From Brachypterus glaber (taxonomy: Eukaryota > Arthropoda > Insecta > Coleoptera > Kateretidae): a stretch of 64,000 nucleotides of DNA. The stretch spans positions 42,492,006 to 42,556,005 of the forward strand of contig OY294047.1 of NCBI GenBank assembly GCA_958510825.1, written 5' to 3'. This document shows, one piece after another, positions 10,944-52,813 of the stretch; positions within the stretch are counted from its first letter, which is position 1, and each line of letters starts with the position of its first letter. The translations under genes and the position numbers were made by a program. Below the pieces are notes generated by a model. That model was not told the origin of the DNA and did not search any database. It saw only the letters and a program-made list of their open reading frames with translations.

Positions 10944-11279
10944 AATAGTTATTTATGGTACTAGTGGGTAAAGTAAGATATTGCCCATGAGAAAATTAAC
11001 CTGCGAGGCGTCAGCCAAGCAGGTTAATTTTCGAGAGGGCAATATCGGTTTACCCTTGAGTGCCATACAAGGTTTTATCCAATAAATAGCTTAGGAATTC
11101 ATATTTTTATTAAAAATTTTAATTAAATTTTGCAAGAAAATAATTTGACAAGTGACACTTGAGTGGGTAAAATAAATAATTATCCACTCAATAAAGTAAA
11201 AGCCACGCGGGGGTTATTATTGAGTATCTATTTAAAATAAAGCTGGTAATTATCTTATTATCTGTATGTATTGGATAAA
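10944..11279 (+). mobile_element. non-autonomous YR-type element, family A, copy 1
   Basis: The start is AATAGTTATTTATGG and a 120 bp imperfect palindrome follows to 11067 (TATGGTACTAGTGGGTAAA at one side, TTTACCCTTGAGTGCCATA at the other), tipped by a GC-rich loop at about 11001-11020. The inner inverted repeat TTTTATCCAATA lies at 11073-11084, a second hairpin GAGTGG...CCACTC at 11161-11189, and the right terminal repeat TATTGGATAAAA at 11269-11280. It has no open frame. Copies 2 and 3 (16609, 34543) are close to it, and the recombinase-bearing element at 39198 shares its ends. It sits 41 bp after the exon-like segment, i.e. in the presumed intron. Confidence 0.85.
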
Positions 11280-16608: not shown

Positions 16609-16914
16609 AATAGTTATTTATGGTACTAGTGGGTAAAGTAAGATATTGCCCATGAGAAAATTAACCTGGCGTCAGCCAAGCGGTTTACCCATGAGTGCCA
16701 ACAAGGTTTTATCCAATAAATAGCTTAGGAATTCATATTTTTATTAAAAATTTTAATGACATTTACAAGAAAATAATTTGACAAGTGACAGTTGAGTGGG
16801 TAAAATAAATAATTATCCACTCAATAAAGTAAAAGCCACGCGGGGGTTATTATTGAGTTCATCTGTTTAAAATAAAGCTGGTAATTGTCTCATTATCTGT
16901 ATGTATTGGATAAA
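16609..16914 (+). mobile_element. non-autonomous YR-type element, family A, copy 2 (palindrome deleted on one side)
   Basis: Nearly identical to copy 1 from AATAGTTATTTATGG (16609) to GGATAAA (16914), with the inner repeat TTTTATCCAATA at 16707-16718 and the terminal TATTGGATAAA at 16904-16914. About 30 bp of the palindrome are missing: after AACCTGGCGTCAGCCAAGC the sequence jumps directly to GGTTTACCCATGAG, removing most of the descending inner arm. The left flank ends in GGATAA, the same letters as the element's own right end. Confidence 0.85.
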
Positions 16915-33070: not shown

Positions 33071-34542
33071 TTAAGAATTTTCTATGTTACTTTTTATTCT
33101 TATAGTATTTTTTCAATTGAACTTACCTATGGCTGATTTGTTTCATCTGAAGCCAAATCTTTGGTTCCAGAGAAGTCATCTAATCACTCAGAAATCAATC
33201 TGAGAATAGATTTTTTGATTGAATAGATATATTTTACAAGATTATTGTATAACTACCTTCATATATAGTAATAAAAAGTGACCTCTTTGGTCTAAGTACA
33301 CCATTTTTCACGCGATACTTGCTTCCTGGAAGCCATACACCACATATGGACAGGCGTAACACCTCGTTTCTCGCATAGACATCGAAATTAAAACGTTCTG
33401 TGCGCACCATAGATCTATTAAAATAATGACTATTCGATTAAAATTTTTCGCTATGGTAACGTGATTTATTACGAAATTATAATGGGATGCTTGCATGGGA
33501 ATGGTAGTAGGCTGGGTGAAAAGAATCTGGATCCACATTTGTAATTGTACAGAGCAAAAGGAATTAATCAACATTTATTGAAAATTATGCAGTCATCTAT
33601 AATACAGGAAACGTAAAAATAGGAATATTAGTTTATAGCTTAAAATAATTAAAACTGTGTCTGTGATTGATGGATTCGTTAAAAACTGAATCTTAAAAAT
33701 TAAAACTTAAAGAAAAACTGATTTATATAACCTATTCCTAAAAGAGAATGTACCTAGTTTAAAGTTTTAATTTTTTAAATATCCACCAATCAAGTTTCAA
33801 ATTTTGAGGAATCCAGCAATTAAATATTAATTTTTAGGAAACGTCAAAATATTTTTTTCTACGACTGCTTTAGAATGTAAGCAAATACACACACTTTTCA
33901 AACACAGAATATATCCATTCTAGCTCTAGATATGGTATGAATATTCTGTATCAAGAATGAAAACATGTAGTGACATCTATTGTTTATAAAATTAAAGAAA
34001 ATTGTAGCAAAATTAGCAAAAATATATACATATTTTACCAAACCAAATATTGAATAATATAATGCAATTTATAGTTTTGCGTTAAAATTACATAAAGTTT
34101 ATTAGTTTTTCTTAATATTTGACCAGTTTTTTATCAATTTAGTTCAAAAAATTAAAACTGCTCCATCTATTGTTAAATATTTAAACCTGATATCTGTCAC
34201 AACAATCTGACATAACCTTCAATTTTTGTATTATAATTTGTAAATATGTGCTAAGATTAAATAAAAATCTTTTTTAAGTACTAATTTGATAAAATTATTA
34301 AATAACATTAATTGCTTTATTTAAAAATATGTGTTTTGTTGCATTTACAATGTCGAATCACAAAAAACATTGTTTTTAACCTTGTCCGCAGTTTAAAGCC
34401 ATACAGTGTTTTATATTTGCAGTCGAAGAAAAAGTTTAGTCTACAACACGTATGACCGACAAACTTTCCGCTCGCGCAGAATATTGTCTACTCCATAGTA
34501 GTTATAGAATATACTATTAAATTTAAAAGTATACTATAATAT
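33071..34542. other. gene-free AT-rich region
   Basis: A minus-strand 88-codon frame at 33308-33574 contains LIDLWCAQNVLISMSMRETR but no family features; not called. AATATACTATT at 34489-34499 resembles a YR-type start in inverted orientation but has no palindrome. Confidence 0.35.
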
Positions 34543-34866
34543 AATAGTTATTTATGGTACTAGTGGGTAAAGTAAGATATTGCCCATGAGAAAATTAACC
34601 TGCGAGGCGTCAGCCGAGCAGGTTATTTTTAGAGAGGACTTTATCGGTTTACCCATGATTGCCATACAAGGTTTTATCCAATAAATAGCTTAGGAATACA
34701 TATTTTTATTAAAAATTTTAATGACATTTACAAGAAAATAATTTGAGTGAGTGGGTAAAATAAATAATTATCCACTCAATAAAGTAAAAGCCACGCGGGG
34801 GTTATTGAGTTTATCTATTTAAAATAAAGCTGGTAATTGTCTTATTATCTGTATGTATTGGATAAA
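34543..34866 (+). mobile_element. non-autonomous YR-type element, family A, copy 3
   Basis: Begins AATAGTTATTTATGG and ends TATTGGATAAA. The palindrome, the inner repeat TTTTATCCAATA (34672-34683), the second hairpin (about 34750-34778) and the block AAAGCCACGCGGGGG all match copy 1, with small deletions. This is the third of three close copies; copies 1-3 differ by indels of a few to 30 bp, so they are probably of similar age. Confidence 0.85.
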
Positions 34867-38657: not shown

Positions 38658-39197
38658 AAACGAGAGAAAATACACGTTAAAAAATTTAATATATTATTAT
38701 TATTATAATTTTAAATTTGCAATGTAAATAAAGAAAATAAAATAAATTTATTGATATATTATCAAATAATTTATTCTGGATTAATGTTAAGTAAAATAAG
38801 ATGTTAATGAACTAAATTTATCGCACTATCTCTTTATGTCCGATTTTAGCAAATTTATTGTTATTAACTAAACGTGTTATTCTTTTTTATTAAAATTAAC
38901 ACAATACATTTTTTTTTCGTGATTTTACTCTTTATTTATGGGATCAAGACCTTTAGCTATAAGTTAAATCCTTAATAGCAACATTGTTGAATGAATTACT
39001 CAAAAAGCACCAGTGGTGCTGCACAACTTTCACCATCGGACAGCTTTTTTAATTTTTTTTATTATTTTATTCTGAAACTCCCTGAATATAAATAAATAAT
39101 ATTTCTCTTACCCAACTTAAAATTAAACCATAGAACTTAAAACTGTTGGATATATTTTTACATTCCATAAAATGTCTTAGCAGATTTAAACACTTAT
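38658..39197. other. gene-free AT-rich region
   Basis: No supportable feature; a minus-strand 64-codon frame at 39067-39261 runs into the neighbouring element and is not called. Confidence 0.35.
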
Positions 39198-39328
39198 AAT
39201 AGTTATTTATGGTACTAGTGGGTAAAATAAGATATTGTCCACGAGAGAATGTTTGACCCACGACGGCCGTAGGCCGAGTGGGTCAATATTCTTGTGTGGA
39301 CAATATCTATTTGCCCACGTGTGCCATA
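39198..39328 (+). repeat. terminal palindrome of the recombinase element
   Basis: TATTTATGGTACTAGTGGG pairs with CCCACGTGTGCCATA, AAGATATTGTCCAC with GTGGACAATATCT, and the tip GACCCACGACGGCCGTAGG with CCGAGTGGGTC. The tip (39255-39285) is strikingly GC-rich for this DNA. It lies outside the inner inverted repeat, so the two ends of the element are not symmetric: left has the palindrome plus repeat, right has the repeat alone. Confidence 0.8.
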
Positions 39329-39517
39329 CAAAATTTTATCCAATACATTTGTAATCATACGAAAATGCGGTTTTTAATAATGCTTTTTTATGTACACGCA
39401 ATGTTTTATCTCATTACGGCTGCTGTAATAGCAGGCGGCTATGTTACAAAAAAAAACAATTGCAAGTTTAACAGTTCAAGATTTAATTTTCCGCGTGGCG
39501 TCATTTTTAAATTTAAA

Positions 39518-40767
39518 ATGGATTTTGGAGAAGAAAATAGTGTTTTTATCCCTGAGGATATCCTGGAAGAAGCTAAAGTAGCTGCTTTTAATACACTACC
39601 GCCGAAATCAAAGGAAAAATATGAACACGAGTATAAAATTTTCGATAACTGGAGAAATTTGAGAAACATAAAAGGTTTAAATGAGGATGTTCTGCTTGCA
39701 TACTTTTTGCATTTATCAAAGTCATTACAATCGAGTTCAATGTGGTGCAAATACTCAAAATTAAAGGCAACTATAAAAATCTTTGAGGATATAGATATTT
39801 CGAGGTAAAACATACTTATTTTTGTGATTTATTTTCTAAGTTTGTATATTTTAGGTTTACAAAGCTCACAGCTTTTTTAAAAGGTAAAAGCAGGGATTAC
39901 AAGCCCAAAAAGGCTAGAATTTTAGAACGGGAAAATATAGTAAGATTTTTGGTGGATGCGCCAGACAGTCAGTATCTCCTGATGAAGATAGCTCTGATTA
40001 TTGCAATATCAGGGGCATGTCGTTGTGATGAGCTAACAAAACTGACAACTGCTGATATTGAAGACAAGGGAGCATATTTATACATCAAAATTCCAGATTC
40101 TAAAACCAACAAGCCACGTAGTTTTGCTGTTATTGAAGAAGGATTTCCAGTAAACCTATTACAATTATACAAAAAATATGTATCCCTTAGGCCCAAAAAT
40201 CCTAAAACAGATAGGTTTTTTCTATGTTACAGAGACCAGAAGTGTATATGCCAGCCAGTTGGCATTAACACTCTTTCTAAGATACCATTTCATATCGCAA
40301 GATATTTAAACTTACCAAATTCTTCCGATTACACTGGTCACTGCTTTAGACGTTCCTCAGCAACATTGTTGGCTGATGAAGGAGCTGATATTATGGAAAT
40401 TAAACGCCATGGAGCTTGGAAAAACAACAATGTTGCTGAGGGGTACATAGAGGATTCTATTAAGAACAAAATTGAAATTGCAAGAAAGATATCAGGAGCA
40501 AAAACATCTACTGTGGTTCGTACTCCTGTCCACATTCCTGCCACTGATGTCATTGCTTCAACATCAGCCACTGAAAGTGCTCCTGCCACTATTTCAGTCC
40601 CTCCTCCTCCTCCTCCTATTAATATATACTCCTCATCCAGACCGACAAGCCCCATTAATGTTACAGTGAACAATGCCTTAACTAAGGCCTTTGAAGGTCA
40701 GTTTGGGGGTATACACTTCCACGGACCCATCCAAAACATTAACATATATAAAAAAGAAACTGAATAG
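39518..40767 (+). CDS. tyrosine recombinase (Crypton-like), two exons
   Basis: Exon 1 is 39518-39804, a 50 bp intron (GTAAAA...TTTTAG, 39805-39854) follows, and exon 2 is 39855-40767; the joined frame is 399 residues. Residues about 1-125 form a helical SAM-like core-binding domain (SKEKYEHEYKIFDNW; MWCKYSKLKATIKIF), and 126-300 the catalytic domain. All expected catalytic residues are seen: R152 (SGACRCDEL), K179 (PDSKTNKP), H258 and R261 (TGHCFRRSSATLL), H281 with W284 (KRHGAWKN) and the nucleophile Y293 (AEGYIED). The enzyme should cut and rejoin DNA through a 3'-phosphotyrosine and insert or excise the element as a circle. The C-terminus (310-399) is low-complexity with a PPPPPP run. An upstream Met at 39278 is in frame, but ATG 39518 starts where the family-like sequence begins (DFGEENSVFIP). 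A poly(A) signal AATAAA is at 40817. The gene has no stop or frameshift and may be active. Confidence 0.85.
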
Positions 40768-41455
40768 ATTTTACTGTAGTTTTTATACAGTTTTTTGGTA
40801 ACTTTAAAATTATTTCAATAAAATATTTTCAATGTTTCATTTATTAATTTAGAACTACCTATTTTGTACGTTTCATCTACTATAGAGGCTATTCTACATC
40901 GACCAGTTCGATGTAAAAACTATATATTTACAAAAAACGCAAGAAATATAAATATAGTTTATAAATAATAGTCTAAAGACTTCATGACTAAAGTAAATTA
41001 AAGTGAATCATTATGTGCTTAATATGAAATCGATATTTTTAAATTTTACAATCGATATAAAAGCATCCTTACATCAATAAACATCGAGATTCGATGATGA
41101 GTAGGCTTTGGAAAACAAACGTTTGACATTTCAATTTTAAGGTTATGATAGCAATTTTATTGCTTTTAAAATTTCAACATTGTTACTGTTTATTTTAGCC
41201 GTTTGGCTCGTAAGATCAATTAAATGGGATCCCATGATAAACGCACACACCCCAATCACTAAAAAGTAAGTATTTCATTAAAAAACTGCCTTTTCTAAAA
41301 GAGTGGGGTAAAAATATTGTCTCACGTTGCTAGGGGAGACGTGAGACAATTTATAAACATTGAATAATATGTCAATTTCCTTAGGTAAGTTGACGACAGT
41401 AATCAAAGTCTTTATATTGATGTATTGGATAAAATAATGTTAACTATACTGCCCT

Positions 41456-41938
41456 TCTAAGACAAGTTGTCCTATCTGCAAAAATTCACTTTTTGAGATA
41501 ATCACACCATTGTATTGCTTTACACTAGCCCCATGTGCCTACTAAAAAGAAATGTCCTATCTAAACCCCAAATCCTAAAAATTAAGATATTTGTCCTATG
41601 TGGAAAATTTTCAATGTTTTCTAAATAAAATTGTCCCAACTAGTCTTTACTAGACGAATAAGTCAGGACTAGGACTAACTTTACAGATCTTAGTAATTTG
41701 ATTGGAATTTTTAGATCATTTTGTCCTAATTTTCTCAGATAGAAAAAATGCATTTAGTATGACAATTTATTTTTCTGACAAAAAAAATCATTTTTTTCAA
41801 AGGATTTTTGATTTTTGATTTAAAATAAAGCAGAACCTATAAATAAAGCCATATTTATTTAAACAAAAACAATAAAACGGGCCATATCTCAAAACATCTA
41901 ACTTGCAGATAGGACAACTTGTCTTAGCAGGGTAGTAT
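41456..41938. mobile_element. TIR element with ACTGCCCTTCTAAGAC ends
   Basis: The left end (ACTGCCCTTCTAAGACAAGT then TGTCCTATCTGCAA) is inverted at the right as TTGCAGATAGGACA then ACTTGTCTTAGCAGGGTAGT: 34 bp with one or two mismatches plus a 1 bp indel. TA-containing flanks on both sides. Interior 410 bp contains several TTGTCCTA / TTGTCCCA motifs and no gene. Confidence 0.8.
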
Positions 41939-42286
41939 ACTTACAGGATAAATTCTGAATGCTGCTTTGTCATTGGTGAGACCAAAAAGTCCAAACAGAC
42001 AACTATGCTTAAATGTAAATATATGTCCCTAAGTAATTTTATCTACTATACTTAGCTGTCTTTAATTCATAAGTTTGTGTAAATGTGTGTAAATAAATTA
42101 AATCTATGTAAAATAATGTATAAGTCTGGCAAACCTCTGTAAAACGCTGTATTTAAAATTACACAAATTTACAACATTAATGTAAAATTATTTAAAATTA
42201 CATAGATTTAGATTGATTTACGCATATTATCAATTACGGACTATGTACTTTTACAGAAAATTACATATCGGTTAATGGTATATTAC
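41939..42286. other. AT-rich spacer with small inverted repeats
   Basis: TAAATCTATGTAAA near 42098 and AAATTACATAGATTTA near 42193 are inverted partners; TTACACAAATTTACA-like motifs recur. Possibly a small old MITE; limits not definable. Confidence 0.3.
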
Positions 42287-46755: not shown

Positions 46756-47872
46756 ACAGGGTGATCAAATTATTACGAATATTCTGTATAATACTAAAAG
46801 TAAAATACGAGTTAAAACAAAACCAAAAAAAGTAGGGTATACCTGTATGATTTGGTGCCAATTTGATACAAAAAAATTTTTGAAAATTTTTAACACATTT
46901 GGTGACGTACATACAAATATATTTTTCTTCAAGCGTACTAAAATGTTCATATTTTATAACTGAACACACTAGTTAGACGTGATCTATTTTTTTACAGTAA
47001 AAAAATAAGTTCATTGTTGTACGCCGTTAAAAAAAGTTAGTTAGCAAAACCACCACTGGCGGCAGCACTCTTTGACTTTGATAACAGCCATACTTCAAAC
47101 TTGTTTGTTTATAATGTAAACAGGTGGTTGACTCGAGATTCTGTGCAAAAACCTTGTTTGAAATTGATTAAAAATGATTGAAGAAGAATATATGGTTTAT
47201 ACACCTACAAATCTCCCCGGAATTGCAAATGCTACATTAGACAAGATATCATCAACATCGCGAAAAGTGTACGATTTAGCCCGCGAAAAAAAAATAAAAT
47301 GAGCTAAGGAAGGTTTAAGTTTATTTCGAAAGGGTTTTATTGGCCTATTTTAATAAAAAACATACTTTATTACTGAATAAATTAAATTTAAAAAATTAAT
47401 ATTTAAAAAATATATATAGGATGCTTGAAGAAAAAATAGTATGTTTCACTCAGAGGAAAAGTGCTTTTTTTACTCGCCTGTAGTTTCCGGACTCCGCTTC
47501 GGGTCGTCCAATTCTACAGACAAATAAAAAAAAGCTTTACTTTTCCTCTTAGTAAAACAATATACTATTAATTTAAAACCAAGGCCGACCGCGGCCGTAG
47601 TGTGCAACTTGGTGAAAATTCTTAATTTATTAAAAGGGAAATTGTCATTAACCAAATTATGGATCAATTGAAGAACATTTTTTTAAATGTTAAATTGACT
47701 AATGAAATGAAATACTTAGATAGCATAAAATCTATTAAAAAAATAAATTAAATATTTTATAAAATATTAAATAAAATTATATTCGCTCCGATTAAAGAAT
47801 AGCATATTCTTTTTTTAAGCGTTTTTAACCTTCTTTATTAAAATTTTATACCCTTTTTTTAAATCACCCTGT
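46756..47872. mobile_element. candidate ACAGGGTGAT TIR element hosting a nested element
   Basis: ACAGGGTGATCAAA at the left and TTTAAATCACCCTGT at the right are inverted over about 12 bases, with T/A flanks. The family D-like YR element G lies inside. Short TIRs make this pairing tentative; both ends could also belong to different copies. Confidence 0.4.
46920..47569 (-). mobile_element. palindrome-ended YR-type element, family G
   Basis: On the minus strand it starts AATAGTATATTGTTTTAC (47569) and continues as a very clear 130 bp palindrome to 47436 (CTAAGAGGAAAAGTAAAGC with GCACTTTTCCTCTGAGTG-type partner), tipped by GGACTCCGCTTCGGGTCGTCC (47490-47510, plus strand). The inner repeat is at 47421-47436 (plus: ATGCTTGAAGAAAAAT) and its inverted partner at 46921-46936 (plus: ATTTTTCTTCAAGCGT). 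The cargo, about 480 bp, has no intact gene. Same order of parts as the recombinase element. Confidence 0.7.
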
Positions 47873-52402: not shown

Positions 52403-52813
52403 TTTATCCAATACCCATTATTAGAGAGACTTAATTTGACGTTTTCTGTCAAGATTCATTGGCAGAAAACGTCACATTAAGGCTATCTACCAAGCTTACA
52501 CTTGACAATTTAATCATTGAAAGTGACGTTTTAATTATTCTGTAAAAAACAACTCACAAGTTATACTATGGAATTTTTAATCACCGAAACGTGACGGTTT
52601 ATTGAAATTACAACTAAATTTTGTGGAAATGTGATTTTTAAATTTGATTAAGAAGTATTTTTAAGTGGTATTGGAAAAAATGTTGTACAGCACATGTGAG
52701 GTAAGTGACAATATTTACTCAAAAATTAACCCACTTGGCAAAGGGCCTCATGGGTCAACGTTTTTTTAGTAAATAATATCTTACTTACCTCATTTGTACT
52801 GTAAATAACTATT
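52403..52813 (-). mobile_element. palindrome-ended YR-type element, family B
   Basis: On the minus strand: start AATAGTTATTTACAGTAC (52813), palindrome to 52685 (AATGAGGTAAGTAAGATATT with its TGACAATATT...CTCACATGTGCTGTAC partner) tipped by GAGGCCCTTTGCCAAG, inner repeat (plus TATTGGAAAAAA, 52669-52680), second hairpin TTTGACGTTTTCTG / CAGAAAACGTCA (52435-52474) and terminal repeat (plus TTTATCCAATA, 52403-52413). Ends are recognisably homologous to family A although the middle is unrelated. Both flanks carry GGATAA, the element's own end sequence. Confidence 0.75.

Follow-up and report, generated by a model that had tools for sequence, protein, structure and literature searches.

Integron attC sites form hairpins that are split by integration, with a few bases placed at the opposite end of the unit; the cassettes stand in head-to-tail arrays, and attC carries extra unpaired bases near the crossover. 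Folding of attC is mentioned in an account of the strand-biased circularizing integrative elements of Vibrio, and in that account the attachment sites of these elements have no attC-like inverted repeats (PMC9345347). According to Kojima and Jurka (2011, PMC3212892), terminal repeats, either direct or inverted, are absent from animal Cryptons, and Crypton excision is proposed, by analogy, to yield a circle. In a curation guide, the one feature said to mark Crypton ends is a short direct repeat (PMC8969392). In DIRS1-like elements, as described, internal stretches complement both ends, the circular junction spans 3 bp and the target is not duplicated (PMC3266345); it has been proposed that DIRS/YR (tyrosine recombinase) retroelements arose from a Crypton and a Gypsy reverse transcriptase (RT; cited in PMC6681497). 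In the literature on Cryptons, covered as titles and the beginnings of abstracts and with subscription journals and Repbase outside its scope, we found no description of the architecture reported below.

We analysed an element that lies in a window of 64,000 nucleotides (the whole stretch of DNA under analysis). Our main reading, to which we give a probability of roughly 0.7, is that it is a Crypton-like, RT-less YR transposon with a long imperfect inverted repeat as its recombination site, and that integration cuts this repeat near one end. Its features are the following (a slash in a motif marks a joint or an insertion point):

39200–41432, + strand: complete YR transposon, family A, TAG...GGATAA, placed by the same ends in other copies, by empty sites and by GGATAA/TAG junctions
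39208–39328, no strand: imperfect palindrome, predicted hairpin-forming part of the split site, from its self-inverse match, fold and covariation
39336–39347, − strand: inner repeat TTATCCAATACA, reverse complement of the right terminus
39518–39804, + strand: YR gene, exon 1
39805–39854, + strand: predicted GT-AG intron of 50 nt
39855–40767, + strand: YR gene, exon 2, with the catalytic residues and the stop codon
41316–41350, no strand: short perfect hairpin near the right end, with 12-bp arms (z = −3.38)
41421–41432, + strand: right terminus TGTATTGGATAA, the putative outer part of one hairpin arm, separated by integration

An initial inspection of the letters alone, which we refer to as the sequence-only reading, had placed this element at 39198–41433. 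The element stands, and its exact limits do not: junctions and empty sites put the unit at 39200–41432, and the AA and the A on either side are part of the A-rich target or core, outside the unit. A separate element with inverted ends (41441–41481 versus 41903–41943, 93%) occupies 41441–41943, beginning about 10 bases past the right end of the YR element.

The YR protein of family A has 399 residues and is encoded in two exons. Phage_integrase is its sole Pfam domain (E = 1.2e-11; threshold E ≤ 1), and a C-terminal GCR1_C domain was not found at this threshold. An alignment of 24 sequences shows no variation at R152, K179, H258, R261 and W284 and almost none at Y293; the gene is therefore, as had been proposed, an intact two-exon YR gene with R, K, HxxR, H/W and Y in place. 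The only long frames within 39198–41433 are those of the YR, and neither the open reading frames nor Pfam (E ≤ 1) gave any RT, RNase H, DDE transposase or other enzyme in this interval. These results uphold the exclusion of a DIRS-type retroelement for want of RT, and they also support the Crypton-like assignment by gene content: YR only, no RT. We conclude that family A is an intact, recently active, YR-only DNA element that is Crypton-like by content and has a palindrome at one end only. Homologues of the YR amount to 413 proteins; among the 120 listed, every named one comes from an insect, in most cases a beetle, and many of the rest are unnamed proteins from metagenomes or assemblies. A pattern drawn from the alignment, used to look for relatives with DNA context outside this genome, matched 8 times in viral contigs and 57 times in genome contigs, and tblastn confirmed none of these matches. 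An AlphaFold model of the exon 2 part (303 residues, mean pLDDT 80.6) has Cre and XerH as its closest folds; the integron integrase IntI ranks 44th, on which ground a special likeness to it was rejected. The intron follows codon 96 in family A and seemingly lies elsewhere in other families; the tblastn matches of families B, D and E (L059–L069; see below) break near query residues 140–156.

The genome from which the window comes (648 Mb, 842 contigs) was searched for further copies. The best 40 of 951 candidates from the DNA search were scored, so the copy counts are lower bounds: at least 21 full or near-full family-A copies at 98–100% identity and one at 84%, together with shorter derivatives that have both ends. 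The 399-residue frame is kept in 15 of the 22 long copies, the window copy counted, and is lost in 7. The exact 23-base left end occurs 7948 times in the genome (reversed control, 0); since the searches returned only about 22 long family-A copies, most of these left ends probably belong to gene-less copies. Across 28 loci compared, the left end reads (AA)TAGTTATTTATGG and the right end GTATTGGATAA(A) or a one-base variant. The exceptions at the left are L008, L017, L019 and L026, in which the first three bases deviate and the left-end trinucleotide is not AAT, and L014, L016, L022 and L024, in which the left side is shortened. Flanks differ among the 28 loci, except that L018 and L020 share theirs, both being placed at the same position of a related gene-less copy. 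In L017 (501–2981), behind a full-length copy, a piece of about 406 bp from its own 3′ part (element positions 1786–2212) is repeated head to tail about six times, and the series finishes in a normal right end.

Gene-less copies that share these ends had also been reported in the window. Their presence is borne out, and their number is corrected from three to four:

10946–11278, + strand: gene-less copy c1; ends, palindrome and inner repeat as in the complete element
16611–16913, + strand: gene-less copy c3, palindrome partly deleted
34545–34865, + strand: gene-less copy c2
52404–52811, − strand: gene-less copy c4, diverged; palindrome kept, with changes on both arms

Copy c4 (left end at 52811) is the most diverged of the four, and c3 (left end at 16611) is without much of its palindrome.

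Empty sites define what an insertion adds. L003, L018 and L020 each sit inside a gene-less relative. When the flanks of each are joined, they align across uninterrupted relatives, gap-free over 183 bases (L020) and 167 bases (L018); for L003 the lengths differ by 11 bases. Searches of the genome with 13 of 21 prepared joined flanks showed that two of them, from L005 and L010, align across the site with other repeat copies without a change in length, and that the one from L002 does so with a 2-base length difference; the other 10 gave no through match among the matches listed, repeats filling the list. The empty sites found (L003, L018, L020, L002, L005 and L010) lack the palindrome and the repeats; this, and the constancy of the ends at the 28 loci (four of them shortened at the left), are the two points on which the sequence-only reading had staked its case. 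The sampled empty sites read AA/A; what an insertion contributes is TAG...GGATAA, and apart from the shared A's nothing is duplicated, although a 2-bp AA duplication is indistinguishable from none because the core is A-rich. Both empty relatives of L010 read C after the insertion point where the insertion has A, and one of the two empty relatives of L005 has a single-base difference in the A run. Of 46 loci given, 44 were scored: 39 have AAT as the left trinucleotide, and all 44 have AAA as the right one. For L003 and L004, one of the ends scored is that of an adjacent gene-less copy. Bearing in mind that 20 gene-less copies are the best-scored matches of a query that reaches 11–12 bases into the right flank, the right flanks of these copies are no fair sample of targets.

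The design of the site emerges from the two ends taken together. The sequence 39208–39328 matches its own reverse complement at 75%, and 39198–39350 has a predicted fold of −40.5 kcal/mol, as compared with a shuffled mean of −12.75 (sd 2.82; z = −9.84; 0 of 200 shuffles as good); the palindrome that had been noted outside the inner repeat, on one side only, is thus confirmed. An inverted-repeat search of 39000–41700 yielded no long terminal inverted pair for the element; within this interval, a pair of 21-nt arms (39328–39348 and 41420–41440, 90% complementary) connects the right end with the inner repeat. As the inner repeat is complementary to the opposite terminus, joining of the ends, as in a circle, would complete one hairpin of about 160 nt. 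Judged by its sequence, then, the palindrome together with the inner repeat is one site, a point that the sequence-only reading had missed, and the asymmetry of the element would result from where integration cuts that site: TAG, palindrome and inner repeat stand at one end of the insertion, and the last 12 or so nucleotides of the outer arm, TGTATTGGATAA, stand at the other. When the ends are joined as GGATAA/TAG, one predicted hairpin is restored, with the inner repeat and the right terminus as pairing partners. The same holds for right-to-left joining of the window element and of its four gene-less copies, with a weaker fold in the damaged copies c2 and c3. The right subterminal hairpin (41300–41352) opens with GTGGGGTAAAAATATTGTC, which by eye is like the outer palindrome arm GTGGGTAAAATAAGATATTGTC and is possibly a third copy of the arm sequence. 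The core of the uncut arm (39330–39347), GGATAA/AATTTT, resembles an inserted right end beside its usual target (AA/AATAT); the uncut arm might mimic or guide the target.

Covariation in the stem was followed in 12 of 23 non-redundant left ends (57 before thinning), 10 of family-A type and 2 of family-B type. The 11 left ends that were dropped have palindrome deletions (e.g., L004, L018, L020, L095 and the window copy at 16611) or were in the wrong place or orientation (e.g., L070_-167 and those of L096), so the results describe copies with intact palindromes: 86.2% of cells pair, and two-sided compensated changes occur in 20 of 50 stem pairs, a number reached in 0 of 500 shuffles and never above 9 with a slid partner. 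The number of further pair types is within the shuffle range (175 of 500 shuffles). We consider this compensation to be strong sequence evidence for pairing, though it is no formal probability, since the structure was taken from family A and the sequences are related. It bears on an alternative to which we assign less than even odds, although it deserves serious attention: that the YR binds double-stranded inverted sites and uses no single-stranded fold, the palindrome acting as symmetric arm sites or as a DIRS-like internal complementary region that helps to bring the ends together. The ends, the mostly-AAT 3-bp junction and the absence of target duplication all match the published description of DIRS1 (PMC3266345), and the nearest folds, Cre and XerH, act on duplex DNA. 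On the other hand, the arms change in a compensated way within families and differ between families, which fits pairing better than a fixed protein-binding sequence; the weight of this argument is lessened by other processes that can also keep palindromes symmetric.

A protein search of the genome identified further YR families, of which copies of B, C, D and E were fetched; family S54 is represented by L054, the best stretches of which have 42–51% identity to the query. F1 (L069) and S52 (L052) are family-B copies. All six families are thus from one genome, and the five further ones (B, C, D, E and S54) share the arrangement of A. Each of the six has a palindrome at one end only (self-inverse matches of 118–153 nt in the five), which lies 5′ of the gene in A, B and D, and 3′ of the gene in C, E and S54. 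In every family the outer end of the palindrome reads (AA)TAG, and the complement of the opposite terminus sits directly inside the palindrome: of 16 bases, 13 are complementary in A, 13 in B, 15 in C, 13 in D, 14 in E and 14 in S54. In a shuffle control that ignored position, such complementarity arose in 4, 4, 0, 10, 0 and 0 of 2000 shuffles, respectively. The joined ends fold into one predicted hairpin in each family (for D the termini were taken from two copies), and in all six folds, as read by eye, the cut arm is 2–3 nt longer than the uncut arm near the crossover. L053 (S53) has the palindrome, but its opposite terminus was not found and it was left out of the six. In one blastn comparison family A DNA had no match to B, C or S54; in another, A matches B, D and E in the gene only, plus a 40-nt A-rich match beyond the end of D. 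The left ends of B and D nevertheless show about 68% likeness, and 40 nt of the outer end are common to D and C, which indicates that the families are related rather than independent inventions. The window pieces 46915–47570 and 33854–34518 include a gene-less relative of family C, with ends and palindrome region, and a gene-less relative of family S54, with ends.

These families also speak to whether the palindrome might be a transcription or RNA element of the YR gene, outside the recombination site. In family A it does lie 5′ of the gene and could be part of a transcript; yet gene-less copies keep it, and its position 3′ of the gene in C, E and S54 means that the gene can lie on either side. 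For these reasons, we regard such a role as very improbable.

The joined ends occur as such in the genome. A search for the family-A pattern GTATTGGATAA-N(0-4)-TAGTTATTTATG gave 230 head-to-tail junctions genome-wide, with 0 matches to the reversed-pattern control and 0 to a tail-to-tail pattern; in 98 of 100 listed junctions, from about 58 loci (hand count), no base lies between the ends. Right ends face each other 6–7 bases apart in L072 and L073, beyond the gap of the tail-to-tail pattern; as facing right ends are found in 2 of 20 gene-less copies, neighbouring insertion is not only head-to-tail. Eight arrays were fetched, the longest of them with 17 units. L090 (7 units of 334 bp) and L091 (17 units of 334–335 bp) are built of near-identical units, neighbours being 98.5–100% identical, and L093 has five complete units of 328–332 bp. 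Unit lengths (in bp) are 334, 265, 336, 336 and 334 in L092; 1332 (a unit with a nested insert) and 259 in L094; 303 and then three of 334 in L095; and 334, 239 and 239 in L096. In L097 a 263-bp family-A-type unit is followed directly by a family-B-type element. The 1332-bp unit of L094 (497–1828) is a gene-less copy with an insert of about 1 kb that starts CCCAGGTAGCA and ends TGCTACCTGGG. The joined pattern of family C gave 8 matches, and all four that were fetched consist of right terminus and left end; one family-B junction was found, in L052. The joined form is therefore present in the genome as head-to-tail arrays, some of them mixed; neither these nor the five further families were within reach of the sequence-only reading.

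Could such arrays arise without the YR? Adjacent insertions or tandem duplications might have been amplified by unequal crossing-over or rolling-circle replication, or the arrays might be assembly errors. The near-identical units of L090 and L091 are of the kind that unequal exchange gives, and uniform arrays may come from that process alone. However, the joints without a base gained or lost, the mixed unit lengths of L092, L094, L095 and L096, the A-to-B joint of L097 and the same kind of joint with different neighbouring units in family C all argue against this origin for the arrays in general, and we consider it unlikely. The mixed arrays, like the cross-family pair, suggest instead that units were inserted at an end already present. 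As for the split-hairpin design itself, the predicted fold, the junction counts, the tail-to-tail null and the covariation disfavour an origin by chance; the complementarity of terminus and inner repeat, taken alone, does so more weakly, since some shuffles equal it in A, B and D.

We hypothesize, in keeping with our main reading of a site cut by integration, that the YR works through a circle carrying the joined site GGATAA/TAG; joined ends are observed within chromosomes. The hairpin, as single-stranded or cruciform DNA, would be what the YR or its synapse recognises, and the exchange with an A-rich target would fall no more than about 3 bp from the junction core (AAT). Arrays would grow by insertion of a circle at the end of a resident copy, or by insertion of a multimeric circle, and gene-less copies would be moved in trans by the YR. 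Several observations weigh against this account: the C in both empty relatives of L010, the left trinucleotides other than AAT, the facing right ends, the shuffles that equal the complementarity in A, B and D, the palindrome of L053, for which no opposite terminus was found, and the limitation of all families to one genome. A stronger form of this explanation, which we advance only tentatively, is that the YR acts on one folded strand, as with attC: the 2–3 extra bases of the cut arm would fix polarity, as do the extrahelical bases in attC, and replication would resolve the product, so that the donor can stay. It would account for joined sites that fold into one predicted hairpin in six families, for stem changes that are compensated while the sequence diverges, for a cut arm that is longer near the crossover in all six (by eye), and for head-to-tail arrays of units of mixed length. 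Against it, the hairpin folding is a prediction, the predicted YR fold ranks Cre and XerH first and IntI 44th, and no replication-strand bias is seen, the order of strands looking random in a hand count of a small region (C1 0.1–1.32 Mb). Nor were the copies of this region grouped into orientation domains, a pattern that would have spoken for a replication-strand mechanism. In C1 1.51–3.0 Mb there are ‘+’ copies only among the matches listed, probably a listing effect and not an orientation domain.

If the site works as we propose, it changes what can be asked of Cryptons. Their recombination has so far been proposed by analogy, with ends that are hard to define (PMC3212892), whereas the putative site is visible here; it recurs in six families within a single genome and its cut is precisely placed, so that the reaction can be tested with short DNAs. 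A design like the DIRS internal complementary region (ICR), in an element without RT, suggests that the complementary region of DIRS may be a YR recombination site older than its reverse transcriptase, and so bears on the proposed Crypton and Gypsy RT origin of DIRS (PMC6681497). The head-to-tail arrays offer a route from transposon to satellite-like repeat. It is a doubtful further step, and in our view an improbable one, to see here a eukaryotic counterpart of the integron cassette, in which the YR recombines a folded, single-stranded, split hairpin, disperses gene-less cassettes by the thousand and assembles cassettes into head-to-tail arrays; the internal complementary region of DIRS would then derive from this site design.

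How, then, does the element compare with known systems? By analogy, it may be described as a Crypton-like YR transposon with an attC- or ICR-like split hairpin site, the workings of which would resemble those of attC or of the DIRS internal complementary region. Its palindrome and terminus-complementary inner repeat depart from the published description of animal Cryptons (PMC3212892). With CryptonI, the insect Cryptons of that description, it has in common that it is a YR-only DNA transposon with no C-terminal extra domain in what, to judge by the relatives of the protein, is an insect host, and that it has gene-less derivatives sharing both ends, as in the published CryptonI-1N1_RPro; it differs, by that description, in that palindrome and inner repeat appear to form one split site (PMC3212892). 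The likeness to DIRS1-like elements, as these are described, lies in the YR, in an internal stretch complementary to the ends as joined in a circle, in a 3-bp junction that is often AAT and in the absence of a target-site duplication; the differences are that here there are no RT and RNase H and no long inverted terminal repeats, and that the complementary stretch is joined directly to one terminus, in a predicted hairpin (PMC3266345). The Vibrio features that invite comparison are YR elements, circles from one strand and a T-rich crossover region, but the Vibrio elements are described as bacterial, of several kb, and without attC-like repeats (PMC9345347).

The integron cassette is like our element in a site that is split by integration, with the remainder at the opposite end (here by sequence and predicted fold), in head-to-tail arrays of different units joined at the site, and in extra bases near the crossover. 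There are also differences. Here the YR is encoded inside an autonomous element, although gene-less copies must be served in trans, and it is not IntI-like by fold ranking; and here the units enter A-rich sites genome-wide, with no primary attI-like site known.
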